Shown piece after piece: positions 7,237-58,604 of a stretch of 64,000 bases of DNA (within the stretch, counting starts at the first letter, position 1; each line of letters opens with the position of its first letter). Source of the stretch: Halalkalibacter suaedae. GTDB taxonomy: Bacteria; Bacillota; Bacilli; Bacillales; Bacillaceae_D. The notes under the pieces are model-generated. The model was not told the DNA's origin, searched no databases, and worked only from the letters and a program-made list of their open reading frames with translations. The position numbers and the translations under genes were made by a program. The DNA is taken from the NCBI RefSeq assembly GCF_017939705.1, contig NZ_JAGKSQ010000002.1, forward strand, positions 310,001 to 374,000. The letters run 5' to 3'.

Positions 7237-8077
7237 AACAATAAGTGAACTCAGAACATGTATTCAACAAGAGAGAAGCTTTAGTAAATCAATAGGGTTT
7301 GTTCCAACAATGGGTTTTCTTCATGAAGGTCATCAAAGTTTATTACAACATGCCCGTGAAAATAATGACGTTGTTGTTTTAAGTATTTTTGTTAATCCAC
7401 TACAATTTGGTGTAAATGAAGATCTTGACCGTTATCCTCGTGATTTTGAACGTGATGAACAAATAGCCACTAAAAATGGTGTCGATATTTTATTTTATCC
7501 AGCTGTGGCTGAAATGTATCCGAAAGAGATGCCTATGACAATAACGGTTACTAAAGGGGTCGATGTTCTTTGTGGGCAAAGTAGACCTGGTCACTTTGAC
7601 GGTGTTGCAACAGTTGTGATGAAGTTGTTTCAACTTGTCCAACCAACTAATGCCTATTTTGGACAAAAGGATGCTCAGCAACTCGCGATCATCATGAATA
7701 TGGTCGAATCATTTAATATACCTGTCACTGTCATTCCATGTCCGACGATTCGTGAAGTCGATGGTCTTGCGAAAAGTTCAAGGAATGTTTATTTGACTGA
7801 AAGAGAGCGTATCGAGGCACCCTTCCTTTACAAAACATTGCAAGAAGCTAGAGCACTGATCCAAGCTGGTGAAACAAATCGTACAAAAGTTGTCGATATG
7901 ATGAAGCGCAGGTTAGCTCAAGGGTTAGGGCAAATTGATTACGTAGAAGTTCTTTCCTATCCTGACTTAGAAATAGACGATACACTAAAAGGTCAAATTA
8001 TCATCGCCTTAGCTTATCGTTACGAACACGCAAGGTTAATTGATAATGACATCATCCATATTAAGGAGGAAGAATAA
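7223..8077 (+). CDS. panC: pantothenate synthetase
   Basis: Condenses pantoate and beta-alanine with ATP. The 284-residue protein has the nucleotidyl-transferase loop [10 protein letters not shown] (HxGH type, about residues 28-37), [15 protein letters not shown] and the KMSKS-like KSSRNVYL near residue 188. ATG 7223 lies inside the panB end behind ACGGGGG; an in-frame start at 7199 would lengthen the overlap without a better ribosome site. One base (TAATG) is shared with panD. Confidence 0.97.
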
Positions 8078-8460
8078 TGTATAGAACGATGATGAAGGCG
8101 AAAATCCATCGAGCTCGTGTAACAGAGTCAAATTTAAACTATGTAGGAAGTATTACAATCGATGAAGATATTATGAATGCTGTAGATATCGTGGAAAATG
8201 AAAAAGTCCAAATTGTTAATAATAACAATGGTGCTAGGCTTGAAACATATGTTATAAAAGGCCCAAGAGGTAGTAGGATGATGTGCTTGAACGGGGCAGC
8301 AGCTAGGCTTGTTCAAGAAGGTGATATCATTATTGTCATATCTTATGCGATGTTTTCTGAAGAAGAATTGAAGTCGCATCAACCTAAAGTGGCAATTATG
8401 AATGAGCATAATGAAATTGAGGAAATTTTAGGTACAGAGCCAGCTTCTACCGTACGCTAA
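8077..8460 (+). CDS. panD: aspartate 1-decarboxylase proenzyme
   Basis: Makes beta-alanine from aspartate for pantothenate. It is a self-cleaving pyruvoyl enzyme of 127 residues; the processing site Gly24-Ser25 is visible in YVGSIT, and Ser25 becomes the pyruvoyl group. The nearby NGAA loop and Lys9 region match the family. Start and panC stop overlap by one base. A hairpin that doubles as the ribosome site of the next gene follows. Confidence 0.97.
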
Positions 8461-8470
8461 ACCGCATATT

Positions 8471-8525
8471 CCCTCCTTGTTCGTTGAACACTTTATAATA
8501 AGTGACCGAGAGGAGGGCTTTTTTT
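8471..8525 (+). terminator. hairpin with T-run whose 3' arm is the ribosome site of the next gene
   Basis: CCCTCCT at 8471-8477 is perfectly complementary to AGGAGGG at 8511-8517, followed by a run of T at 8519-8525. It reads as an intrinsic terminator after panBCD, but the 3' arm is also the Shine-Dalgarno sequence for ATG 8526 and the T-run is its spacer. The 33-nt loop is long for a plain terminator and contains a TATAAT hexamer at 8494-8499. Confidence 0.5.
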
Positions 8526-9500
8526 ATGGATGATTCGCAGTGGCTTGAAGTACTTAATGAAACTGAAAAAAAATGGTCGCTCTTATCGAAGAGCGAGCAA
8601 GAAGAAAAGCTTAGCTATTTAGAAGAAACAGCTGGAATGCTGTTAGATCAGTGGATAGAATTAGACGAGAAAATTCAACAGCTTGAAACAAAGAAAGACA
8701 ATCATTTCTTAGACACATATTACACGTCAAAGGGAACGACCTTCTTTGAAATAGATATGTTTGCTCAAGCAGTTCATGCTCTAAAGAATGAAAAGCCTAC
8801 AGGGACAGAGGATGAAATCAGAAGATTGTATCTGGGCTTTGCTTATTTGTATGAAGATCAATACGAAAGAGCTAAGGAACCATTTATTTATGTTGTTCAA
8901 GTGGCCACCCACCCTTTAATTAAGCACTTTGCGAACATTGGACTCGGTTGTCTAAATATTCGATTAAACCAGATCGAAGAAGCCACTGTCTATTTTGATA
9001 AAGCATATAGACTTACTTCAACAGATGATGTCGTGTATAATTTAGGCATCTGTTATTATTCACTAAACATGTATTCGCTTGCTAGAACATTTTTTGAAAC
9101 GTATGTTACAAATGTCCCTGAGGATGGAGAAGCTTTTTTTTTCCTTGGCTACTGTTATTGGGAAGAGCAACTACATGATGATGCGTGGTCAGCGTGGACA
9201 ACCGCTATTCACTTATTAAATACAACTGAAGCCCTTAACGCATTAGCTTATATATGTGAGTGGCACGGGCACCATCAGGCAGCTATTCATTGTTATGAAC
9301 GAGTAAAAGAAAAGCACGGGACATCATTGGACGTTTTACATGGGTTAGCATGGAATATGGCACTTGTAGGAAATAAAGATGAATCTCTACAGCTTTTTAA
9401 ACAAGCTTTAAGTCAGGATTCAAAAAATAAAAATCTAAAAAAGTCGCTTTCTTGGCTTAGTCAGAGCGATCCTATGTTCAAATTTGAAGCATTGGAGTAG
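8526..9500 (+). CDS. tetratricopeptide-repeat protein of unknown role
   Basis: A 324-residue soluble protein with no signal peptide. After an N-terminal helical region with a short coiled-coil-like stretch (residues about 20-55), the body consists of degenerate TPR units, such as the one holding YNLGICYYSLNMYSLARTFF and a later one with AAIHCYERVKEKHG. TPRs mediate protein contacts; the partner is not evident. ATG 8526 was preferred to an in-frame GTG at 8502 because GGAGGG sits just before it. It lies between panD and dinG, which are adjacent in B. subtilis, so it is an insertion relative to that order. Confidence 0.8.
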   Translation: MDDSQWLEVLNETEKKWSLLSKSEQEEKLSYLEETAGMLLDQWIELDEKIQQLETKKDNHFLDTYYTSKGTTFFEIDMFAQAVHALKNEKPTGTEDEIRRLYLGFAYLYEDQYERAKEPFIYVVQVATHPLIKHFANIGLGCLNIRLNQIEEATVYFDKAYRLTSTDDVVYNLGICYYSLNMYSLARTFFETYVTNVPEDGEAFFFLGYCYWEEQLHDDAWSAWTTAIHLLNTTEALNALAYICEWHGHHQAAIHCYERVKEKHGTSLDVLHGLAWNMALVGNKDESLQLFKQALSQDSKNKNLKKSLSWLSQSDPMFKFEALE

Positions 9501-29007: not shown

Positions 29008-30255
29008 ATGGGAATTTTACATATAGAAGATATTATTATAGCTAACCAACGCTTAAAAGATGTTGTCACACATACACCATTACAAAAAAATCAGGTGTTA
29101 TCTGAACGATATGAATGCAATGTGTATTTAAAACGTGAGGATCTTCAAGTTGTTCGTTCGTTTAAAATTAGAGGAGCTTATTATCAAATTTCAAGCTTAA
29201 CAGAAGAAGAGCTTAACAACGGGGTCGTTTGTGCCAGTGCTGGAAACCATGCACAAGGTGTAGCATACTCCTGCCGTGCTCTGCAAATCAAAGGAAAGAT
29301 ATTTATGCCTTCTACAACACCGAGGCAAAAGGTAGACCAGGTTAAATTCTTTGGGAAAGAATTTGTTGAAGTCCATTTAACAGGTGATACGTTTGACGAT
29401 TCCTTTAATGAGGCGATGAAATACAGTAATGAATATAATCTAGCATTCATTCACCCATTTGACCAAGAAAAGATTGTCGCTGGACAAGGCACTGTAGGAA
29501 TGGAGATCATGAATGATATTGATGAAAATATTGATTATTTATTTTCATCTATTGGTGGAGGCGGCTTAATTAGTGGGACGGGCACTTATATAAAAAGCAT
29601 TAGTCCACAAACGAAAGTCATTGGTTGTGAGCCACTAGGAGCTCCAGCAATGAAAGAGTCTCTGAAACAAGGAAAAGTAATAGAGCTTGAGAAAATTGAT
29701 AAATTTGTTGATGGAGCAGCAGTGAAAAAAGTAGGTCAAATTCCTTTCGAGATTTGTCAAACTCTTTTAGATGATGTAGTCCTTGTACCTGAGGGGAAAA
29801 TCTGCACAACTATACTTGAATTATACAATCAAAATGCTATTGTCGCAGAGCCTGCTGGCGCAATGTCCATTTCAGCATTAGATTTTTATAAAGATGAAAT
29901 AAAAGGGAAAAATGTTGTATGTGTCGTCAGTGGTGGAAATAATGATATAGGACGGATGCAAGAAATGAGAGAGCGATCATTAATTTATGAAGGTTTACAA
30001 CATTATTTTATTATTCACTTTCCACAAAGAGCAGGGGCTCTAAGAGAATTTATCCAAGATGTTCTTGGACCTGAAGATGATATTACAAGATTTGAGTATA
30101 CTAAGAAAAATAATCGCTCAAATGGACCTGTTCTTCTTGGGATTGAATTGAAACATAGCCACGATTATGATCAACTAATAGAAAGATTAACGAAAAAAGG
30201 CTTTGCATATCACGCTCTTAATAAGGATGAAAGTCTATTTCAATTACTTATTTGA
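29008..30255 (+). CDS. ilvA: threonine ammonia-lyase
   Basis: Deaminates threonine to 2-oxobutyrate, the entry to isoleucine synthesis. The 415-residue fold-type II PLP protein has the lysine motif SFKIRGAYY near residue 54, SAGNHAQGVAYS near 87, the glycine loop SSIGGGGLISG near 183, and a C-terminal ACT-like regulatory part (from about residue 325). Length fits the Bacillus short form. ATG 29008 follows GAAAGGGATAGG. A weak promoter TTCGCA-17-TAATAT is possible upstream; no T-box was seen. EutB-type hydroxyectoine lyases share this fold, but IlvA motifs and the regulatory domain favour IlvA. Confidence 0.92.
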   Translation: MGILHIEDIIIANQRLKDVVTHTPLQKNQVLSERYECNVYLKREDLQVVRSFKIRGAYYQISSLTEEELNNGVVCASAGNHAQGVAYSCRALQIKGKIFMPSTTPRQKVDQVKFFGKEFVEVHLTGDTFDDSFNEAMKYSNEYNLAFIHPFDQEKIVAGQGTVGMEIMNDIDENIDYLFSSIGGGGLISGTGTYIKSISPQTKVIGCEPLGAPAMKESLKQGKVIELEKIDKFVDGAAVKKVGQIPFEICQTLLDDVVLVPEGKICTTILELYNQNAIVAEPAGAMSISALDFYKDEIKGKNVVCVVSGGNNDIGRMQEMRERSLIYEGLQHYFIIHFPQRAGALREFIQDVLGPEDDITRFEYTKKNNRSNGPVLLGIELKHSHDYDQLIERLTKKGFAYHALNKDESLFQLLI

Positions 30256-49184: not shown

Positions 49185-49203
49185 CGACCATACTCATTTT
49201 TTT
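49167..49203. terminator. terminator shared by kapB and the PucR-type gene
   Basis: ATGAGTATGGTC and GACCATACTCAT pair around TTTAAC and a T-run follows. The stem contains coding bases of kapB and the stop codon of the convergent gene. Confidence 0.88.
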
Positions 49204-50876
49204 GATGTTTCTAGTCGATATAGCCACAGTCTAATACTCATATCTAACAAGAACAAATCATCGGAATTGTCCAAGGAACAATTAGTCAATGTTTCAATTT
49301 TTCTTAATCTGTATAAAAGCGATTGTCGATGCAGATTAAGTTCTCTTGCTGTCTGACTAACATTTCCACGATTTTGATGATAACTAGTAAATGTATGAAG
49401 TAAGTCAATTTGACGGCTTTTTTGATAGTGTAATAGAGAGTCAAGTACTGAGTCTGATATATCTAATAAATCTTCATTCTTAAGCAAATGTTCTAATACT
49501 CGGTCCACTTTCGTATCCGCATAAGAAGAAATACAGCCAGGTCCGAATCTCTTTTTTCCAATTTCACGTGCCCGATTAGCTTCTTGATAGCCTTCAAAAA
49601 AGCAGGAATAGCCATTTTGCTTAGCGATTCCCCAAGTAATACATATACTAGGATAGAGAAATGACACCCTCTTCTGAAGCTTTTCAATATATACTTTCGC
49701 CTGCGATACCGTATCAGGATGGTTTGTTTCTAAATAAATGATCAATTCTTGCTGTTGATACGTGACCATTGATTTTAGTGCTAATGATTTTGCAACACTC
49801 TCCGCTTCTTCTTCTACATATCTAATACATTCATGCTGCCAATGATCAAAAGAAATAACTAGATGAGGTAACCTTTTATAGACATCTTCCATATGTTCGA
49901 GTGAAGCAACTAAACATAGATATGGTAGATTAATTTGATAATTTAACGATTTAGAACGAGAGAGTAGTGATTCAATCGAATCAAAGGATCCTCTCGATAA
50001 TTCCCAAACGAAATCATCACGTAACCGCCATTCTGCTTCTTTTGCTGCTTGTTCATGTAGAAAATGAATAGCAACCGTTGTTGTCACATGTTCGAGAAGC
50101 ATCTCCCATTCATGTTGCTCTTGCGGTGTTAATGGATTCTCTGAAAATCCACCAATAACTAAATACCCTTGGATATTTCCCGCTGAATGGATTGCTAACT
50201 GTAGACCGTAACCCTGATCGTAGGGAATCCATTTAAACGTTTGATTAACTATCTGGTTTATCCCCTCCTCGCTTAGTTGAGCATGAAGAAATTCGCACCA
50301 TTTTTCGTGAAGATTACTTTCATTTGAAAATGATTTACCACGGATGCTCCCACGTTTGTCAGCAATCATCACTTCACAATCAATCGATTGTGCGACATGA
50401 TTAGCTACCTTTTCGAGAGGTTGCCGCGTTAGGATTAACTCAAGTAATGCTTTACGAATTGTTTCGACTTTTTCTACGTACTGATGCTTAGATTGTTGAA
50501 GTAATTCATAAACTGACTCGATAATATCCGAAAAGCGGATAGACCAATCTAGTTCAACTAAGATAAAGTCTCGTTCGCTGGCATAAGTTATGATGGATTT
50601 TGGGATTTGATCAATGAAAGGACCAAGTGCAAAGGCAAGAGCAGCGGCACCTGAATCGATAACATCTTTCACAAATGTCATGAACAAATTTTCATCATGA
50701 GCAAAACTAACACCAGTCGTTAAAATATATTCATTCTTACGCACAAACGATTCCACAGGGGCTTCTATAACAGAAATCCAATCAACAACTTGGACAGGGA
50801 TCGTCTGTGTACCGGTTCGAACACTTGCTTTTTCAAAGGGAGAAAGCGAGTGTACATCTTTTACAACAATATTCAT
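49194..50876 (-). CDS. PucR-family transcriptional regulator
   Basis: A 560-residue regulator with the N-terminal PucR domain (residues about 8-125, including EYILTTGVSF and ALAFALGPFI), a central GAF/GGDEF-like region, and a C-terminal PucR-type HTH (about 497-552: NVSQTARELNLHRQSLLYRLRKIE). Members control catabolism of purines, amino compounds and other nitrogen sources. It is divergent from the PLP/M20/DoeA cluster, with 144 bp between starts, so it is the likely regulator. The extended -10 promoter TGTTATAAT is visible upstream on the minus strand. Confidence 0.9.
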   Translation of the reverse strand: MNIVVKDVHSLSPFEKASVRTGTQTIPVQVVDWISVIEAPVESFVRKNEYILTTGVSFAHDENLFMTFVKDVIDSGAAALAFALGPFIDQIPKSIITYASERDFILVELDWSIRFSDIIESVYELLQQSKHQYVEKVETIRKALLELILTRQPLEKVANHVAQSIDCEVMIADKRGSIRGKSFSNESNLHEKWCEFLHAQLSEEGINQIVNQTFKWIPYDQGYGLQLAIHSAGNIQGYLVIGGFSENPLTPQEQHEWEMLLEHVTTTVAIHFLHEQAAKEAEWRLRDDFVWELSRGSFDSIESLLSRSKSLNYQINLPYLCLVASLEHMEDVYKRLPHLVISFDHWQHECIRYVEEEAESVAKSLALKSMVTYQQQELIIYLETNHPDTVSQAKVYIEKLQKRVSFLYPSICITWGIAKQNGYSCFFEGYQEANRAREIGKKRFGPGCISSYADTKVDRVLEHLLKNEDLLDISDSVLDSLLHYQKSRQIDLLHTFTSYHQNRGNVSQTARELNLHRQSLLYRLRKIETLTNCSLDNSDDLFLLDMSIRLWLYRLETSKK

Positions 50877-50911: not shown

Positions 50912-50960
50912 ATTATAACAAATTGAACGAATATCGAGGATTTTTTTCATACAGTTTGTT
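50912..50960. promoter_or_regulatory. regulator promoter and candidate operator in the divergent region
   Basis: TATAAT of the regulator promoter (minus strand, 50917-50912) abuts AACAAATTG at 50917-50925, which is repeated inverted as CAGTTTGTT at 50952-50960 (8 of 9 bases). The arms could bind the PucR-type dimer and control both directions. No strong promoter could be picked for the forward operon. Confidence 0.4.
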
Positions 50961-51020
50961 GAATGATTTCCCTTTCTGGATTTCATATCATGGTTGTAAG
51001 AAGAAGAAAGGGGTGGCAAG

Positions 51021-52211
51021 ATGGAAAACAATAAATCATTAAACAAAGCAACAAAAGCTGTATGGTCAGGTGAAAAAGATTCTTTGGCACATGGGGCAAC
51101 TCAAGTGCCAGTCGTTCACAGCGTTGCCTATACCTATGATGATGTTGATCATTGGTATGATGTAGCGATAGGTAAGAAAAAAGGACATATTTATGGAAGA
51201 AACACAAACCCAACTGTTCAAGCTTTCGAAGACAAGGTTAAGTCACTTGAATATGCTGAAGCGGCGACAAGCTTCTCTACTGGAATGGCAGCTATCTCTA
51301 ATGCTTTGTTAACCATTTTAAAACCCGGTGATCGAGTCGTGTCTATTAAAGATACGTATGGTGGTACAAATAAGATATTCTCAGAATTTTTACCACGACT
51401 ACAAATTGAAGTTGTTCTTGTAGAAACAGGAAATCATGAACAAATGGAAACTGAAATTGCGAAAGGTTGCAAGCTTGTTTATCTTGAAACACCAACAAAC
51501 CCAACAGTGAAAATTACTGATATTAAACGAATTTGTAAGGCAGCTCGAGCGGTTAATGCTCTTGTCTTCGTTGATAATACGTTTGCAACTCCGATCAATC
51601 AAAATCCGCTTGCTTTAGGAGTAGACCTTGTCATTCATAGTGCGACGAAATTTCTTGGTGGTCATGCAGATGCACTAGGTGGGGTAGTATGTGGTTCCAA
51701 GTCATTAGTTGATAAAGTGTATCACTATAGAGAAATTAATGGAGCTACCTTGGATCCGATGGCTGCATATCTTCTCCTTCGTGGAATGAAGACATTAGAC
51801 CTGAGAGTTCAAAAGCAGCAACAAAATGCTTTAGCTGTCGCAAACTATTTATCGACACATGAAAAAATAGACCAAGTGTATTATCCAGGTCTTGTCACAC
51901 ATCCGAGTCATGACATTGCCAAAAAGCAGATGAGTGGATTTGGTGGAATGCTTAGTTTTTCTTTGAAAGGAGAAATGGAAGCGGTACGACAATTCCTCCC
52001 AAAACTCAAGCTAGCTCATCGTGCAGCAAACTTAGGGGCTGTTGAGACGACCGTTGGGCCTGCTCGGACGACGAGTCATGTTGAGAATACTGCGGAGGAA
52101 CGAGCTGCGCTTGGAATTCCAGAAGGACTAATTAGATATTCGGCCGGAATTGAGGAAATTCATGACCTCCTGTTTGATCTAGAACAAGCACTTGCGGAAA
52201 TTGATGTGTAA
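51021..52211 (+). CDS. Cys/Met metabolism PLP-dependent enzyme (cystathionine synthase/lyase family)
   Basis: A 396-residue fold-type I PLP enzyme with GRNTNPTVQAFEDKV near residue 59, FSTGMAAISNAL near 93, and the PLP lysine in HSATKFLGGHADA near residue 214. The family includes cystathionine gamma-synthase, gamma- and beta-lyases and methionine gamma-lyase; subtype cannot be fixed by eye. First gene of the operon controlled from the PucR region. ATG 51021 follows AAAGGGGTGG. In context it may act on a diaminobutyrate- or homoserine-derived amino acid, but that is inference. Confidence 0.88.
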   Translation: MENNKSLNKATKAVWSGEKDSLAHGATQVPVVHSVAYTYDDVDHWYDVAIGKKKGHIYGRNTNPTVQAFEDKVKSLEYAEAATSFSTGMAAISNALLTILKPGDRVVSIKDTYGGTNKIFSEFLPRLQIEVVLVETGNHEQMETEIAKGCKLVYLETPTNPTVKITDIKRICKAARAVNALVFVDNTFATPINQNPLALGVDLVIHSATKFLGGHADALGGVVCGSKSLVDKVYHYREINGATLDPMAAYLLLRGMKTLDLRVQKQQQNALAVANYLSTHEKIDQVYYPGLVTHPSHDIAKKQMSGFGGMLSFSLKGEMEAVRQFLPKLKLAHRAANLGAVETTVGPARTTSHVENTAEERAALGIPEGLIRYSAGIEEIHDLLFDLEQALAEIDV

Positions 52212-52214
52212 GCG

Positions 52215-53390
52215 ATGATTTCACTTTTACGAAAGTGGAGAAGGCATCTCCATCAATTTCCCGAGCTGAGCTTTTGTGAATACGAAACAACAGCTTATAT
52301 TATTAATCAAGTGAAAGACCTACCTGGGATAACTATTGAAACAGGAAAAAATGAAATTGGGATTGATACTGGAGTACTTGTGACAATTGGAAATGGAAGA
52401 AAGCCTATTATTGGCTTGAGAGCTGATATTGATGCATTGCCAATACAGGAGCTTAATCAACATTCTTATTGCTCCTCTTTCGATGGTGTGATGCATGCTT
52501 GTGGTCATGATGGGCACACGGCGATGTTAATAGGAGCAATATATCGGTTATCTGAACTATACGAAAAGGATTTTCTAAATGGCACCGTTAAATGCCTATT
52601 TCAACCAGCAGAAGAAACAGAAGATCAATTTGGAAAGACAGGTGCCCAGTATGTACTTGAATCAAGTGCTTTGGATGATGTTGAATCAATTATTGCTCTT
52701 CACCTAGATCCAGAGATTCCTCTTGGAGAAGTGAAGCTGAAGGAAGGTGTCGTTATGGCTAATGTTGATACCTTTCAAATTACGGTTCGTGGGACTGGAG
52801 GACATGGGGCTTATCCAGAGCAAACAATAGATCCAATTTGGATTAGTTCACTAATGCTCCCTGCTCTTTACAGTATGACCAGTCGTAAACTTTCTGCATC
52901 TGATCCGTTTGTTTGTAGCGTTTGTCAGCTAAATGGCGGTACATCGACGAATGTTATTCCTAACACGGTTACATTAGGTGGAACGATTAGAACTTACTCG
53001 GATCACGCTAGAATGATAATTTCAAAGGAATTAAAGAGCCTTGTTAATAGCTTCACGCATTTAGGAGCATCTATTGAAATAATGGTCCATCACGGTGAGC
53101 CAGCTTTAGTTAATGATCGGGATATGGTAGCCATTTTAAAAGAAAGCATTCAAATCGTTTATCCAGATATGCGTATTCATAATCAAACTTACGGAATGGG
53201 TGGTGAAGATTTCAGCCATTTCGCTCAAGTCATTCCAGGGGCTATGATGTTTTTAGGGGCAGGGATTATTGATGTAAATACAAGCTTGCATCAGGCATCC
53301 TTTGATTTCGATGAACAATCACTTGTTTACGGAATGGAGACACTTGTACATTCCGTCTTACTTCGTTTAAGGGGTGATCAACATGCATAA
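52215..53390 (+). CDS. M20-family amidohydrolase (N-acyl-amino-acid deacetylase type)
   Basis: A 391-residue M20D peptidase-like metalloenzyme. Metal ligands are seen in HACGHDGHTA near residue 95, PAEETED near 131, ALHLDP near 159 and GGEDFSHF near 337. Relatives hydrolyse N-acetyl or N-acyl amino acids. Beside a DoeA-like enzyme it is a good candidate to remove acetate from N-acetyl-2,4-diaminobutyrate, replacing the unrelated DoeB/EutE deacetylase. Start ATG 52215 is 3 bp after the previous stop with a weak ribosome site, indicating coupling. Its end overlaps the next gene by 8 bp. Confidence 0.88.
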   Translation: MISLLRKWRRHLHQFPELSFCEYETTAYIINQVKDLPGITIETGKNEIGIDTGVLVTIGNGRKPIIGLRADIDALPIQELNQHSYCSSFDGVMHACGHDGHTAMLIGAIYRLSELYEKDFLNGTVKCLFQPAEETEDQFGKTGAQYVLESSALDDVESIIALHLDPEIPLGEVKLKEGVVMANVDTFQITVRGTGGHGAYPEQTIDPIWISSLMLPALYSMTSRKLSASDPFVCSVCQLNGGTSTNVIPNTVTLGGTIRTYSDHARMIISKELKSLVNSFTHLGASIEIMVHHGEPALVNDRDMVAILKESIQIVYPDMRIHNQTYGMGGEDFSHFAQVIPGAMMFLGAGIIDVNTSLHQASFDFDEQSLVYGMETLVHSVLLRLRGDQHA

Positions 53391-54420
53391 GCTCGCATTA
53401 ATTGGTTTTGGTGGGGTTGGGCAAGGATTTGTAGAGATACTCAGTCAAAAAGAACAGAAGCTAGAAAAGGATGATTATTCATTTTTAATCGTTTCGATTT
53501 GTGATCTTTACAAAGGCTCAATTCATCACGATAAGGGGTTAGATCTAGACAGAGTCTTAGATTCGATCAAAAAAACAGGAACACTGGAACTTTATCCCGA
53601 TTCTGATGAGTTAATACGTGGATGGTCTAGTCAAGAAACGATCAAAAAAACAAATGCAAAAACGATCATTGAAATGACTTATACAGATGTCGATACTGGG
53701 CAACCAGCTATTAATCATTGCGAGCAGGCCTTTAATCAAGGGAAAAATGTTGTTATGACAAATAAAGGTCCTGTTGCATTGGCTTATCACTCATTAAACC
53801 AACTAGCGAAGGAAAAGGGAGTGCGTTGGTTATTTGAAGGAGCTGTGATGAGTGGTACTCCTGCAATACGATTACCTCTAACAACATTAACAGGAAATGA
53901 TATTTCGGAAATAAAAGGAATCTTAAATGGTACAACTAATTATATTCTAACGCAAATGGAAGATGGAATGAGTTATAAAAGTGCTTTAAAACAAGCTCAA
54001 AAACTCGGATATGCTGAAGCTAATCCTAGTGCAGATGTTGATGGCTTTGATGTGCTATATAAAGTATTGATCTTAGCAAATGTTGTTCTAGGAATCCCTT
54101 TAAAACGGGAAGATGTAATCGTTGAGGGGCTCTCAGCTCTTGATAGTGAAGCCGTTATTGAAGCGAAAAGTAATGGTGATCATTGGAAGTTGATTGGTAA
54201 GTTAAAAAAAACAGAGAATGGACTTGAAGCATCTGTAAAGCCAGAAAGATTGTCTAGCAAAGATCCGCTCTCGGCCATTTCAGGTGCAACCAACGCTATA
54301 ACTTATACCTGTGATTTGTCAGGTCCGGTTACCTTAGTTGGAGCAGGTGCTGGTATTAAAGAAACAGCTTTTGCCGTTTTAATTGACTTAATTGAGATTG
54401 AAAGAAGTGAGCGTTTATAA
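53383..54420 (+). CDS. homoserine dehydrogenase-like oxidoreductase without ACT domain
   Basis: A 345-residue NAD(P)-dependent enzyme: nucleotide-binding GFGGVGQGF at residues 7-15, TNKGPVA near 126, and the catalytic signature GILNGTTNYILTQM with YAEANPSADVDGFD near residues 184-225. Biosynthetic homoserine dehydrogenases of Bacillus carry a C-terminal ACT domain for threonine inhibition; here the protein stops before it. It would interconvert aspartate semialdehyde and homoserine. Embedded in the catabolic operon, so likely not the housekeeping enzyme. ATG 53383 follows GGGGTGA. Confidence 0.88.
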   Translation: MHKLALIGFGGVGQGFVEILSQKEQKLEKDDYSFLIVSICDLYKGSIHHDKGLDLDRVLDSIKKTGTLELYPDSDELIRGWSSQETIKKTNAKTIIEMTYTDVDTGQPAINHCEQAFNQGKNVVMTNKGPVALAYHSLNQLAKEKGVRWLFEGAVMSGTPAIRLPLTTLTGNDISEIKGILNGTTNYILTQMEDGMSYKSALKQAQKLGYAEANPSADVDGFDVLYKVLILANVVLGIPLKREDVIVEGLSALDSEAVIEAKSNGDHWKLIGKLKKTENGLEASVKPERLSSKDPLSAISGATNAITYTCDLSGPVTLVGAGAGIKETAFAVLIDLIEIERSERL

Positions 54421-54438
54421 GGAAAGGTGGGGAGTAAT

Positions 54439-55869
54439 ATGGAATGGGTAAAGGAAAAAATGCTCGTTGGCGGAACTTGGAGAAAAGGTGTTCAATCCCT
54501 AGCTGTGTATGACCCAGAAAGCGGTAAGAAGATCGCAGAAGTACCAGCAGCAACAAAGGATGATGTTCAGACAGCTGTTTTTTCAGCGAAGAACGGAGCT
54601 GCTATAAATAAAAAACTCCCTATCCACGAGCGTTCTCGTATTTTACAAGACACGGCAGCTTATATTAACACTCATTTTGAGGTCTTTGTTCATACAATTA
54701 TTTCTGAAAGTAGCAAAACAATCAAAGAAGCTCGCAAAGAGGTACACAGATGCATAGAAACGCTACGTCTCAGTGCAGAAGAATCAAAACGTCTGCAAGG
54801 TGAAACGATTCCATTTTCTCAAATTCCTGGACACGAAAACCGAGTGGGGTATGTTTGTCGTGATCCGATCGGAGTTGTTGCCGCAATTACACCATTTAAT
54901 GATCCGTTAAATTTGGTTGCCCATAAAATTGGCCCAGCGATAGCTGCAGGGAATTCAGTTATTGTTAAACCATCGACATTGACACCCTTAAGTACAATTC
55001 GCTTAGCCGAAGCTTTTTTACACGCTGGCTTACCAGCTGAAATACTATCTGTGATCACAGGAAAAGGTTCAGAAATTTGTGATGTTCTTGTCCAGCATGA
55101 GGATGTACGCTTCGTATCGTTTACAGGTGGGTATGAGACGGGGAGATCTATTTTAGAAAAAGCAGGTGTCAAAAAGACTGCGATGGAGCTCGGTTCTAAT
55201 TCACCAACCATTATTTTAGCAGATAGTAACATGGAGGAAGCCGTTGCTGCTACTGTTGCTGGGGCATTTGGCGTTGCAGGTCAAAACTGTATCAGTGTTC
55301 AGAGAATCTATGTGATCGATTCAATCTATTCAGAATTTATTAAGCAGTATACGAAAGAAACGAAAAAATTAAAAATTGGCTCTAAAATCGATGAAAATAC
55401 TGATATCGGACCAATGATTTCAGAAAAAGAAGCAAGTAGAGTGGAAAACTGGATCCTAGAAGCTGAATCTGCTGGAGCCGAATTGTGTTGCGGTGGGAAA
55501 CGTGTTGGAGCCTTTCTTGAACCAACCGTTTTAACAAATGTGCCTGATTGTGCTTTAATTTCAAAAGAGGAAGTTTTTGGCCCAGTTGTCATAATTAATC
55601 CAGTTTCTTCATTCAATCAAGCAATTGAGCTAGCTAATGATAGTAGATTTGGACTACAGGCCGGTCTTTTTACATCAAGTATAGATCTGGCCTTTCAAGC
55701 AATTGAGCGGTTAGACTTTGGAGCAGTTATGATCAATGATAGTAGTGATGTCCGGATAGACAGTATGCCATTTGGTGGTGTAAAACATTCAGGTATTGGC
55801 AGAGAGGGGGTTCGTTATTCGATTGAAGCAATGACCGAGCGTAAAGTCGTTGCGTTTCGTCTTAACTAA
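54439..55869 (+). CDS. NAD(P)-dependent aldehyde dehydrogenase
   Basis: A 476-residue ALDH-superfamily enzyme. Visible are the Asn/oxyanion region TPFNDPLN near residue 152, the cofactor-side FTGGYETG near 228, the general-base Glu in AMELGSN near 249, and the catalytic Cys in GQNCIS near 283. In ectoine pathways DoeC is an ALDH that oxidises aspartate semialdehyde to aspartate; this gene occupies that role by context. Phosphonoacetaldehyde- or lactaldehyde-type substrates are alternatives. ATG 54439 follows GGTGGGGAG. Confidence 0.85.
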   Translation: MEWVKEKMLVGGTWRKGVQSLAVYDPESGKKIAEVPAATKDDVQTAVFSAKNGAAINKKLPIHERSRILQDTAAYINTHFEVFVHTIISESSKTIKEARKEVHRCIETLRLSAEESKRLQGETIPFSQIPGHENRVGYVCRDPIGVVAAITPFNDPLNLVAHKIGPAIAAGNSVIVKPSTLTPLSTIRLAEAFLHAGLPAEILSVITGKGSEICDVLVQHEDVRFVSFTGGYETGRSILEKAGVKKTAMELGSNSPTIILADSNMEEAVAATVAGAFGVAGQNCISVQRIYVIDSIYSEFIKQYTKETKKLKIGSKIDENTDIGPMISEKEASRVENWILEAESAGAELCCGGKRVGAFLEPTVLTNVPDCALISKEEVFGPVVIINPVSSFNQAIELANDSRFGLQAGLFTSSIDLAFQAIERLDFGAVMINDSSDVRIDSMPFGGVKHSGIGREGVRYSIEAMTERKVVAFRLN

Positions 55870-55899
55870 ACAATGATATCGTGAAAGAAGGTGAGGAGT

Positions 55900-57096
55900 T
55901 TGTTTGCACTAGCAGAGTATCGTCAGCGTTTAAACTCACTGAAAAAACGAATGGTCGATGAAGGGGTGGATGTTTTACTTGTTTCAAACCCTTCTAATAT
56001 GTATTATCTATCTAATTATTCTGCTTGGAGTTTCTATGTTCATCAAATGATGATTATCACTCTAGAAGACGATCAACCCTTATGGATCGGTAGACAAATG
56101 GATGCATTAGGGGTTTCGAAAACGACATGGCTTGATGATCAACATATTATCTCCTATCCAGATTATTATGTTCAATCGAAAGAAAGGCATCCAGTTGATT
56201 TTGTTACGAATATTTTGACAGAAATAGGGCAAAGCAACAGAGTGATTGGAGTTGAAATGGATGTTCACTATTTCACTGGTTTATGTTATGAACGTCTAAG
56301 GGCAGGCTTACCAAATGCAACGATAAAAGACACTTCGAGTATTGTAAATATGGTGAGATTGATCAAATCAGATCAAGAAATTGACTATATGAGAAAAGCA
56401 GCAAAAATTGTAGAGAGTGCAATGCATGCGGCTTATGATTCAATTGCAGTCGGAACAAGAGAATGTGATGTAGCTGCCGCCATTTATTATGCTCAAATAA
56501 AAGGAACACCAGAATATGGGGGTGATTATACGTCGATTGTTCCAATGCTCCCAACCAATGAGAATACTTCTTGTCCTCATTTAACTTGGACAGATCGCAA
56601 GTATGAAATTGGTGATTTCGTCACACTTGAACTTGCAGGTGCTTATAAACGGTATCATGCCCCGATGGCTAGGACGATGGCAGTTGGTCAGGCTCCCTCT
56701 CGTGTTAAAGATCTTGCTTTAGTTGTGGAAGAAGGAATAGAAACAACGCTTGATGCAATAAAACCTGGAATACGCGCAGAAGAAGTTGAACAGGTTTGGC
56801 GGAATACGATAGCTAAATATGGCCATCACAAAAATTCTAGACTTGGGTATTCTGTCGGTTTGAGCTTTCCACCTGATTGGGGCGAGCATACAATTAGTTT
56901 AAGACCAGGAGATAAGTCGGTTTTACAACCTAATATGACATTTCATCTGATGCCAGGAATTTGGTATGAAGATTACGGAGTAGAAATAACTGAAACGATT
57001 CTAATCACTGAAAAGGGAGTGGAAACGTTAACTAAATTCCCGAGAAGCTTGTATGAGAAAATGGATCATCCTTTTGTAGATAAATATTCGTCTTAA
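55900..57096 (+). CDS. doeA: ectoine hydrolase DoeA/EutD-like, M24 creatinase fold
   Basis: A 398-residue pita-bread protein with a creatinase N-domain (about 1-150) and an M24 C-domain. Hallmarks I recall from DoeA/EutD are present: NPSNMYYLSNYSAWSFYVHQ, YPDYYVQSKERHP, IGVEMDVHYF, YGGDYTSIVP, PHLTW, RYHAPMART, and GLSFPPDWGEHTISLRPGD. The two Asp metal ligands of M24 peptidases are replaced (LELAGAY and APMART), as in creatinase and EutD, so it is a metal-free ring or amide hydrolase rather than a peptidase. TTG 55900 follows AAGGTGAGG; GTG 55891 is an alternative. Confidence 0.8.
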   Translation: MFALAEYRQRLNSLKKRMVDEGVDVLLVSNPSNMYYLSNYSAWSFYVHQMMIITLEDDQPLWIGRQMDALGVSKTTWLDDQHIISYPDYYVQSKERHPVDFVTNILTEIGQSNRVIGVEMDVHYFTGLCYERLRAGLPNATIKDTSSIVNMVRLIKSDQEIDYMRKAAKIVESAMHAAYDSIAVGTRECDVAAAIYYAQIKGTPEYGGDYTSIVPMLPTNENTSCPHLTWTDRKYEIGDFVTLELAGAYKRYHAPMARTMAVGQAPSRVKDLALVVEEGIETTLDAIKPGIRAEEVEQVWRNTIAKYGHHKNSRLGYSVGLSFPPDWGEHTISLRPGDKSVLQPNMTFHLMPGIWYEDYGVEITETILITEKGVETLTKFPRSLYEKMDHPFVDKYSS

Positions 57097-57098
57097 TG

Positions 57099-57130
57099 AG
57101 CCATAAGGGTACTAACCTTTATGGTTCTTT
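57099..57130 (+). terminator. weak hairpin after the doeA-like gene
   Basis: A 12-bp stem with two G-T pairs (AGCCATAAGGGT against ACCTTTATGGTT) and a short CTTT tail. It may only partly stop transcription before the transporter gene. Confidence 0.5.
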
Positions 57131-57216
57131 AATGTGAAAAATAAGGATAAAATCCGTGACCATTGTTTGTCAGAGTGATAAGATACTACAAAAGAGAGAG
57201 GAGTGGAAGGTAGTAC

Positions 57217-58140
57217 GTGAAACAACAATCAGTTTTATTTACTTATGGTCTTGTATTTTTTGTCATGATCCTCTGGGGAGTAAATGTTGTCATGCTAAAA
57301 GTATTAGTCGACACGTTTCCGGCAACAACTATGACTTCATTTCGCATTATGACTGCTGGTATTGCTGCAACAGCCATCCTACTAGTAACGAGGAATATGA
57401 GAAGGTTAACAGCAAAAGAGTGGAAGTATACGATTCTTGGAACCGTTTTTGGCGTTGTTGCACATCATTTTTTTCTTGCGGAAGGACTCACACAAACTGG
57501 TGCTTCAAATGCTGTTCTAATTCTTGCACTATTGCCATTAACGACCTCGGTGCTAGCGATTTTAATGTTAGGGGACCGGTTAACAAAATGGCGCTTCCTT
57601 GGAATCGTTCTAGCTTTCATTGGTGTACTCTTTATTCAAGGTGGGGCGGGTTCATGGTCAATTGATCGTGGTGAGCTCTATATTTTTGTCGCGATGCTTG
57701 TGCAAGCAATTAGCTTCATTTATATAAAAAAAGCAACGGCTACACTTGATTCAAGGCAAATGACTGGAATGATGCTTCTGATTGGGTCACTTGGATTATT
57801 TGGCGTAAGTCTTTTGCTTGAGCCTGGTGGAACACAAGCTATGGTCGGTGCACCGCTTAGTGTATATGTGATCTTTTTTATTTCTGCCATTTTTGCTACG
57901 GCTGTTGGCCATTTTCTGTTTAATGGAGCGATTGAACGAATAGGGGCAGGACAAACGGCAATTTTTAATAATTTCGTCCCATTCTTCGGGTTACTAAGTT
58001 CTTCTATATTTCTCAAGGAACAAATTTATTGGTACCAGACATTTGGATTTCTCTTTATCGTTATTGGAGTCTTATTCGGAACGGGTTATGTTGAAAGAGC
58101 CATTTTAAAACGTCGAGTCTCACATCAGAAAAGTGCATAA
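57217..58140 (+). CDS. EamA/DMT-family transporter
   Basis: A 307-residue membrane protein with ten hydrophobic segments arranged as two EamA repeats (about residues 8-140 and 150-290). DMT proteins move amino acids or metabolites, usually outward. It follows the doeA-like gene by 120 bp, in the same direction, so it may serve the same compound or export a by-product. GTG 57217 follows GGAAGGTAG. Confidence 0.85.
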   Translation: MKQQSVLFTYGLVFFVMILWGVNVVMLKVLVDTFPATTMTSFRIMTAGIAATAILLVTRNMRRLTAKEWKYTILGTVFGVVAHHFFLAEGLTQTGASNAVLILALLPLTTSVLAILMLGDRLTKWRFLGIVLAFIGVLFIQGGAGSWSIDRGELYIFVAMLVQAISFIYIKKATATLDSRQMTGMMLLIGSLGLFGVSLLLEPGGTQAMVGAPLSVYVIFFISAIFATAVGHFLFNGAIERIGAGQTAIFNNFVPFFGLLSSSIFLKEQIYWYQTFGFLFIVIGVLFGTGYVERAILKRRVSHQKSA

Positions 58141-58569: not shown

Positions 58570-58604
58570 AAAAGAAGGTGTCGTTTTGACACCTTCTTTT
58601 TGTT
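58570..58604. terminator. bidirectional terminator downstream of dapA
   Basis: AAAAGAAGGTGTC and GACACCTTCTTTT pair perfectly around a 5-nt loop, with T-runs in both directions. Confidence 0.88.

Follow-up and report, generated by a model that had tools for sequence, protein, structure and literature searches.

We analysed a 64,000-nucleotide stretch of the Halalkalibacter suaedae genome (hereafter the window), in which six co-directional genes at positions 51021-58140 lie next to a divergent gene for a PucR-type regulator. With a probability of roughly one half, this is a PucR-controlled ectoine-catabolic operon that works via homoserine, a reading whose chemical steps we infer throughout. 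An M24-family, DoeA/EutD-like ectoine hydrolase (55891-57096, + strand, as are all six genes) would open ectoine to N-acetyl-diaminobutyrate, from which an M20 amidohydrolase (52215-53390) would take off acetate to leave 2,4-diaminobutyrate. A pyridoxal phosphate (PLP) enzyme of the cystathionine gamma-synthase (CGS) family (51021-52211) would then swap the gamma-amino group for water, giving homoserine and ammonia. A homoserine dehydrogenase (HSD; 53374-54420), proposed to be catabolic, would turn homoserine into aspartate semialdehyde, and an aldehyde dehydrogenase (ALDH; 54427-55869) would convert this to aspartate. The PLP enzyme and HSD as a pair would stand in for the DoeD of Proteobacteria, sparing 2-oxoglutarate, releasing free ammonia directly and yielding one extra reduced NAD(P). 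If true, this would fill the missing step of Gram-positive ectoine catabolism with an enzyme reaction (diaminobutyrate to homoserine) that we met in none of the literature searched, and would give HSD and ALDH a shared catabolic role that explains the joint appearance and loss of their genes; it would also be relevant to ectoine-producing strains.

Ectoine is very probably the substrate of the cluster. Among solved structures, the chain nearest to the window's M24 protein is the DoeA of Halomonas elongata (PDB 6twk, E = 4.2e-116; next family, 2.6e-34); by sequence comparison, the other solved M24 enzymes are all more distant from it than this proven DoeA. Positions that in two M24 paralogues of the same genome hold what we take to be the peptidase metal ligands are changed identically or alike in the window, Priestia, Haladaptatus, Rhizobium and Klebsiella proteins; the window protein thus appears to have lost these ligands, as in proteobacterial DoeA. 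On clade membership, which the preliminary description had named as a refuting test, our M24 tree bears in part only, as it holds four proteobacterial DoeA rows, two distant paralogues as outgroup and too few other M24 families.

Co-occurrence and gene context point the same way. In a sample of 397 genomes of the order, an M24 gene (called at E ≤ 1e-110) was present in 119, ectoine synthase (over its cut-off) in 118 and both in 97; ectoine synthase was found in 97 of the 119 M24-positive and 21 of the 278 M24-negative genomes (P = 2.8e-49, Fisher exact test, kinship ignored). The window genome carries ectABC on another contig. Neighbouring eutB/eutC genes occur at 37 of 140 M24 loci, EhuABCD-like genes in some sister clusters, and two Priestia plasmid clusters (L036, L037) contain pucR, eutB, pdxS, M24, eutC, the PLP gene, M20, HSD and ALDH consecutively. 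The preliminary description had assigned the genes to ectoine catabolism, and sequence, context and co-occurrence with ectoine synthase support this role. We also observed that pdxS, which encodes a PLP synthase subunit, stands inside the ectoine cluster on both Priestia plasmids.

To place the window's gene set, we compared 140 M24 loci, each covered by at most 20 kb of sequence; the order sample supplied 127 of them and the family a further 13, with second M24 copies in six genomes and about a dozen further family-search matches left out. Orthologues were called by identity to references, with thresholds of 60% for the PLP enzyme, 48% for HSD, 50% for ALDH, 50% for aminotransferase and 45% for M20. 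The PLP, HSD and ALDH genes lie together within about 20 kb in 102 of the 140 loci, the commonest set, and an M24 gene (E ≤ 1e-60) is present in 39 of 41 genomes of the same family; the arrangement is therefore not a chance one. The gene set described earlier as non-standard is so relative to Proteobacteria, but not in this sample, and it has already been printed as a putative Bacillota cluster.

The presence of HSD goes along with that of its neighbours. HSD occurs in 103 of the 140 loci and the PLP gene stands beside it in 102 of these. An ALDH orthologue is present in all 102 loci with both the PLP gene and HSD, and in none of the 24 with the PLP gene but no HSD. Among the 14 loci that lack the PLP gene, five have a class III aminotransferase; HSD is absent from all five and the same ALDH is present in three (L178, L212 and L215; the ALDH of L227 and L241 is weakly related). 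The others comprise one locus with ALDH and M20 only (L136), one with HSD and ALDH (L147) and seven with none of these. Since HSD needs the PLP gene, it would use the PLP enzyme's product, for which homoserine fits best; ALDH, present with either HSD or the aminotransferase, may use their common product, aspartate semialdehyde. In the 397 whole genomes, the PLP gene was present in 93 of the 94 with HSD (the exception, G369, is the genome of L147), and in a class sample of 121 genomes, the window genome included and the PLP gene called at a slightly laxer 1e-140, M24 (11 genomes), PLP gene (10) and HSD (9) were nested.

These comparisons revise the route first proposed. Opening by DoeA, deacetylation by M20 and a final ALDH step to aspartate remain its likely frame, whereas the comparative data favour homoserine as an intermediate before the semialdehyde and not as an end product. 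The step between diaminobutyrate and the semialdehyde had been left open and the PLP enzyme without a role, the cluster being correctly noted to hold no class III enzyme; the comparative data favour the PLP enzyme there.

Shared ancestry was taken into account with a tree of 159 M24 proteins (INDEPENDENCE; quick search in IQ-TREE under LG+G4 without a mixture model; outgroup of two distant paralogues), over which HSD was gained or lost in at least 15 changes. In 13 independent pairs on supported branches, HSD and ALDH changed in the same direction in 11, in opposite directions in 0 and without difference in 2 (P = 0.00098). Control genes tracked HSD far less than ALDH does (M20: 4.2 same, 0.7 opposite, 8.1 none; eutC: 4.0 same, 0.3 opposite, 8.7 none). 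The coupling of HSD to ALDH is firm. The dependence of HSD on the PLP gene, which rests on about five independent events, is suggestive.

The PLP enzyme matches the curated PRK08249 family (NF006097, 741.6 bits, cut-off 600) and, in an alignment of 8 family proteins, keeps K210, presumably the PLP lysine, and all other invariant columns. Its NCBIfam matches, among the 25 listed of 49, are gamma-lyases, gamma-synthases, beta-lyases, sulfhydrylases, unnamed families and one racemase, with no aminotransferase family among them. HSD meets the curated PRK06270 cut-off (NF004912, 433.4 bits, cut-off 373) and shows no ACT domain by Pfam, as originally noted. Its residues K131, E215, D221, D226 and K230, presumably catalytic, are common to the genome's three other HSD-type genes. 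Two of these three are open frames of 445 and 433 amino acids, lengths compatible with an ACT domain, so biosynthetic HSD is probably supplied by other genes of the window genome. ALDH (PF00171, 530 bits) reached no NCBIfam cut-off among the 25 matches listed of 43.

The PLP-HSD pairing extends beyond M24 loci. In three genomes without an M24 match at 1e-110, the PLP and HSD genes are adjacent; in one of them (L266) a GntR regulator, PLP, HSD, ALDH and an amino acid permease are found with no M24 or M20 gene in the stretch. This locus suggests that the trio is a unit for processing an imported amino acid (a gamma-substituted aminobutyrate), to which M24 and M20 are an added front end. Tentatively, and at odds a little short of even, we propose more broadly that a CGS-family enzyme converts diaminobutyrate to homoserine, so that many Bacilli would degrade ectoine without transamination, and that the trio may be a portable module for gamma-substituted 2-aminobutyrates with an ectoine front end, under PucR control at a conserved 21-bp operator.

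Several observations weigh against the homoserine route. We know of no precedent for water as the entering group on diaminobutyrate. On the M24 tree, the PLP gene changes about five times (3.4 same, 0 opposite, 1.6 none; P = 0.125). A PLP gene with neither HSD nor ALDH occurs in 24 of the 140 loci, where homoserine would have to be used otherwise. L147, which holds HSD, ALDH and M24 but neither a PLP gene nor M20, does not fit the route; no remnant of a PLP gene was found in it by tblastn, and supply of that gene from the genome's second M24 gene was rejected, as the 11-kb stretch around it (L268) has no PLP match. In 40 of the 126 loci with a PLP gene, no M20 orthologue lies in the fetched stretch. 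The window M20 protein scores 250.6 bits against the M20-type DoeB2 model (NF038260, cut-off 550), and the window M24 protein scores 461.2 bits against the curated DoeA model (TIGR02993, cut-off 613) and is therefore not classed as a member; the Priestia (530.9 bits) and Haladaptatus (470.6 bits) M24 proteins also miss this cut-off.

The pattern of class III aminotransferases carries further points of this kind. A wider search of the 140 loci returned ten class III genes in nine loci, namely the five aminotransferase loci listed above and four with both PLP gene and HSD. Two of the four (L196, L201) have genes 73-74% identical to the window genome's EctB, which are thus biosynthetic, and in a third (L159) the gene lies 8.5 kb from M24. 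In L222, a class III aminotransferase (7841-9205; 29% identical to the references) stands between PucR and M24, at 181 bases from the latter, and the PLP gene, HSD and ALDH are present in the cluster as well; an aminotransferase therefore does not strictly replace the PLP gene. The aminotransferases of L212 and L241 are 100% identical to two of the references; these two loci, both among the five counted, thus also supplied part of the references for the class III threshold, which is circular for their naming, though not for gene content. Those of L178, L212 and L215 and one L227 gene are nearest to PRK07480, below its cut-off; the L241 gene and the other L227 gene pass the cut-off for GABA transaminase. 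In a set of 80 named loci, six with an aminotransferase match (L062, L070, L073, L081, L090 and L092) lack both PLP gene and HSD; by length and identity, L062 and L081 are the contigs already counted as L212 and L241. In two Shouchella loci (L074, L078), the PLP gene and HSD are both present and an aminotransferase match lies about 4 kb from M24.

Other readings of the same genes were considered. In the one that survives best, which we nevertheless judge unlikely, the PLP enzyme is an aminotransferase-like replacement of DoeD that forms the semialdehyde from diaminobutyrate, ALDH makes aspartate and HSD diverts some of the semialdehyde to homoserine. The net pathway would be that of Proteobacteria, and the label atf in the gene order eutBCD-atf-abgB-thrA-adh given in the available part of PMC13188858 agrees with it if atf is the PLP gene, as the Priestia order suggests. 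An HSD that only uses semialdehyde should, however, survive substitution of the PLP gene by an aminotransferase, yet it is absent from all five loci where an aminotransferase is found without the PLP gene, which also makes HSD as a plain side branch from the semialdehyde less likely, and the listed NCBIfam matches of the PLP enzyme do not include an aminotransferase.

Alternatively, the PLP enzyme could act as a gamma-lyase that breaks diaminobutyrate down to 2-oxobutyrate and two ammonia, in the way methionine gamma-lyase acts on methionine. Such chemistry belongs to the family and suits both the 24 loci with a PLP gene but no HSD or ALDH and a Klebsiella plasmid cluster of DoeA, DoeB and PLP genes. 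Under this reading HSD and ALDH would have nothing to do in 102 of 140 loci and their joint loss would go unexplained; we hold it to be improbable. Still less credible is that the HSD-like protein is a diaminobutyrate dehydrogenase, forming the semialdehyde directly with loss of the gamma-amino nitrogen as ammonia. Diaminobutyrate differs from homoserine in bearing an amine where the latter has its hydroxyl, and L147, the sole locus with HSD but no PLP gene, fits this reading, yet the PLP gene, unneeded here, accompanies HSD at the 102 other loci, and the protein has the conserved residues of ordinary homoserine dehydrogenases and meets their curated cut-off. The least probable reading is one in which the substrate is not ectoine but a different N-acyl or cyclic amidine compound, as the sub-threshold M24 and M20 scores and the lack of a dedicated ectoine importer beside the operon and of close eutB, eutC or doeB in the window are set against the ectoine synthase co-occurrence, eutB/eutC at 37 of 140 loci and on two Priestia plasmids, the EhuABCD-like genes of some sister clusters and a nearest structure that is DoeA.

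For the deacetylation step, the window's M20 protein (TIGR01891, 342 bits, cut-off 153.75) is the proposed N-acetyl-diaminobutyrate deacetylase. Such a role for an M20 enzyme is no novelty in itself, as NCBIfam includes a DoeB2 model of M20 type, though the window protein falls far below the cut-off of that model. Among the 102 loci with PLP, HSD and ALDH genes, 26 (for example L166, L195, L207 and L249) have no M20 orthologue in the fetched stretch; in L207, a relative with 37% identity lies about 4 kb away. In these loci a different deacetylase must act, or the acetyl group is dealt with in another way.

Control of the operon is predicted to involve the divergent regulator (49194-50876, - strand), which scores over the cut-offs of PF07905 (PucR N-terminal, 92.4 bits), PF13556 (HTH_30, 62.5 bits) and PF17853 (GGDEF-like) and so belongs, by its N-terminal domain and C-terminal HTH_30, to the PucR family. 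When 32 PucR-operon intergenic stretches, the window's included, were aligned, a shared block emerged, from which a 21-position matrix was built on 27 stretches (5 were dropped for poor matches). The window site, a probable operator between PucR and the operon (50945-50965, + strand, TTTCATACAGTTTGTTGAATG), is an imperfect palindrome (moderate, matrix correlation 0.55); it scores 28.5 bits, with the next best site in the 64-kb window at 13.9, the site itself being in the training set. Of 109 held-out loci, 62 (0.68 expected) have the best match of the whole stretch, up to 20 kb long, between -200 and +40 relative to the first operon gene, at a median of 75 bases, and in 79 one of the top five matches falls there. 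PucR is encoded at 85 of the 109 loci, and the motif was found in 73 of these 85 versus 6 of the 24 without PucR (P = 3e-8, kinship ignored). It also occurs at aminotransferase-variant loci (L212, L215). L266 and the Klebsiella plasmid cluster (L042) are equipped with other regulators, and their sites reach no more than 13.1 and 8.1 bits, respectively, on either strand (maximum in shuffled loci, 15.8). The 21-bp motif is likely the PucR operator.

All genes named in the preliminary description are open frames at the place and on the strand given there, and their families were confirmed by Pfam and NCBIfam profile searches of the window proteins. Gaps of 3, -17, 6 and 21 bases separate the genes from PLP to M24, which are read as one operon; PucR reads away from it across 144 bases. 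Downstream of the operator, a possible -10 element (TATCAT, 50986-50991, + strand) can be read by eye but is absent from the list of a consensus promoter scan, which gave 31 promoter-like sites versus 26.3 expected (s.d. 4.6), nothing beyond chance. The sixth gene (57217-58140) encodes a predicted EamA/DMT transporter (PF00892) that accompanies the cluster in many, though not all, of the loci where PucR is divergent; a weak terminator-like hairpin follows it (58570-58600, + strand), from a consensus scan whose count in the region was at chance level (6 versus 6.3 expected). Between M24 and EamA, L130 (7783-9207, 474 codons) and L136 (7729-9093, 454 codons) have a membrane protein gene, possibly for an uptake protein, whose product resembles DctM in L136 and has no Pfam match in L130.

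The absence of a class III aminotransferase from the cluster was upheld by Pfam, and by tblastn at 1e-3 in the window. The window genome (4.32 Mb) holds one elsewhere, namely EctB, encoded on contig C27 as part of an ectABC operon. By tblastn, the window yielded no close eutB, eutC or doeB, the search for eutB and eutC being confined to the window; its sole eutB-like match (29008-30255, 30-33% identical) is probably an ordinary threonine dehydratase.

Further M24 and PLP genes occur in other settings. Six loci (L163, L164, L165, L171, L205 and L213) are of a second type, eutB-eutC-M24 with no PLP, HSD, ALDH or PucR gene, and lie in genomes that also hold the main-type cluster. One M24-positive genome without a PLP gene or HSD (G474) has a lone M24 gene, whose neighbours match none of the cluster references except for a weak ABC ATPase match. 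PRK08249-type PLP genes away from any M24 match were seen in three genomes (G226, G273, G373) and as second copies in two (G201, G410); in G226 (L267), as identified by eye, a MarR-like gene lies beside it, with a sigma54-type activator gene and genes of a dehydrogenase complex upstream.

Clusters of this kind are real, conserved and already reported. The available part of PMC13188858 (Boas Lichty et al., April 2026) presents putative, provisional Bacillota ectoine clusters with pucR, eutBCD, atf, abgB (amidohydrolase), thrA (homoserine dehydrogenase) and adh (aldehyde dehydrogenase) and without EnuR or EutE, and mentions archaeal cases too. The window shares pucR, eutD, atf, abgB, thrA and adh with them, and differs in having no close eutB/eutC within the window and a divergent pucR. 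In its main text, as far as available, that paper assigns no route through these enzymes and lacks the word cystathionine, and the roles of the PLP enzyme and HSD are not settled there. In the portion available, PMC10203224 reports doeA in all genomes of its own Bacillaceae set and cites a Sinobaca strain that makes and consumes ectoine. New here are a testable homoserine route and a candidate operator; our search, which hardly covered subscription literature, found no paper proposing a diaminobutyrate-to-homoserine step or a PucR operator in ectoine clusters.

Partial counterparts exist elsewhere. Three Rhizobium/Agrobacterium plasmid stretches that we read have an adjacent HSD-ALDH pair, in all three with aspartate ammonia-lyase; they differ from the window in having no M24 or M20 match, and their likely substrate is homoserine or another amino acid (pRL8 presumably serves homoserine use). 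The PLP protein beside such a pair in Rhizobium (L044) was rejected as one of the PRK08249 kind (301 bits, cut-off 600) and is at best an analogue. In haloarchaea (L038, L039, L041), relatives that share about 50% identity with the window M24 protein are encoded less than 10 kb from an amidohydrolase gene and a threonine dehydratase-like gene; at L038, genes for a class III aminotransferase and a BCCT transporter are found as well. The Klebsiella plasmid cluster (NZ_CP013713) resembles the window in that doeA is followed, two genes on, by a PLP gene of the PRK08249 type, whose identity to the window's is 60%. Unlike the window, it has a true doeB, EhuABCD and a PLP-dependent aminotransferase-family (MocR-like) regulator, with no HSD or ALDH in the stretch; this one plasmid, with DoeA, DoeB and the PLP gene but neither HSD nor ALDH, is the converse of L266.

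For the proposed chemistry, a precedent is canavanine gamma-lyase, a PLP enzyme that yields homoserine from a gamma-substituted 2-aminobutyrate according to the part of PMC10018355 available (citing Hauth et al. 2022). The likeness is of described chemistry, with a different substrate; homoserine-yielding chemistry thus exists for another leaving group. With the proteobacterial doe/eut systems (Halomonas elongata, Methylotuvimicrobium and others) the window shares a DoeA-like hydrolase, a deacetylase and an ALDH. It differs in having M20 for DoeB, the CGS-type PLP enzyme with HSD for DoeD, and PucR for EnuR/AsnC; by Pfam and NCBIfam, no doeB-type deacetylase, doeD class III aminotransferase or EnuR is found among the cluster genes. 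Aspartate is the end product of the proteobacterial pathway in the available part of PMC7192451, as it would be of the route proposed here.

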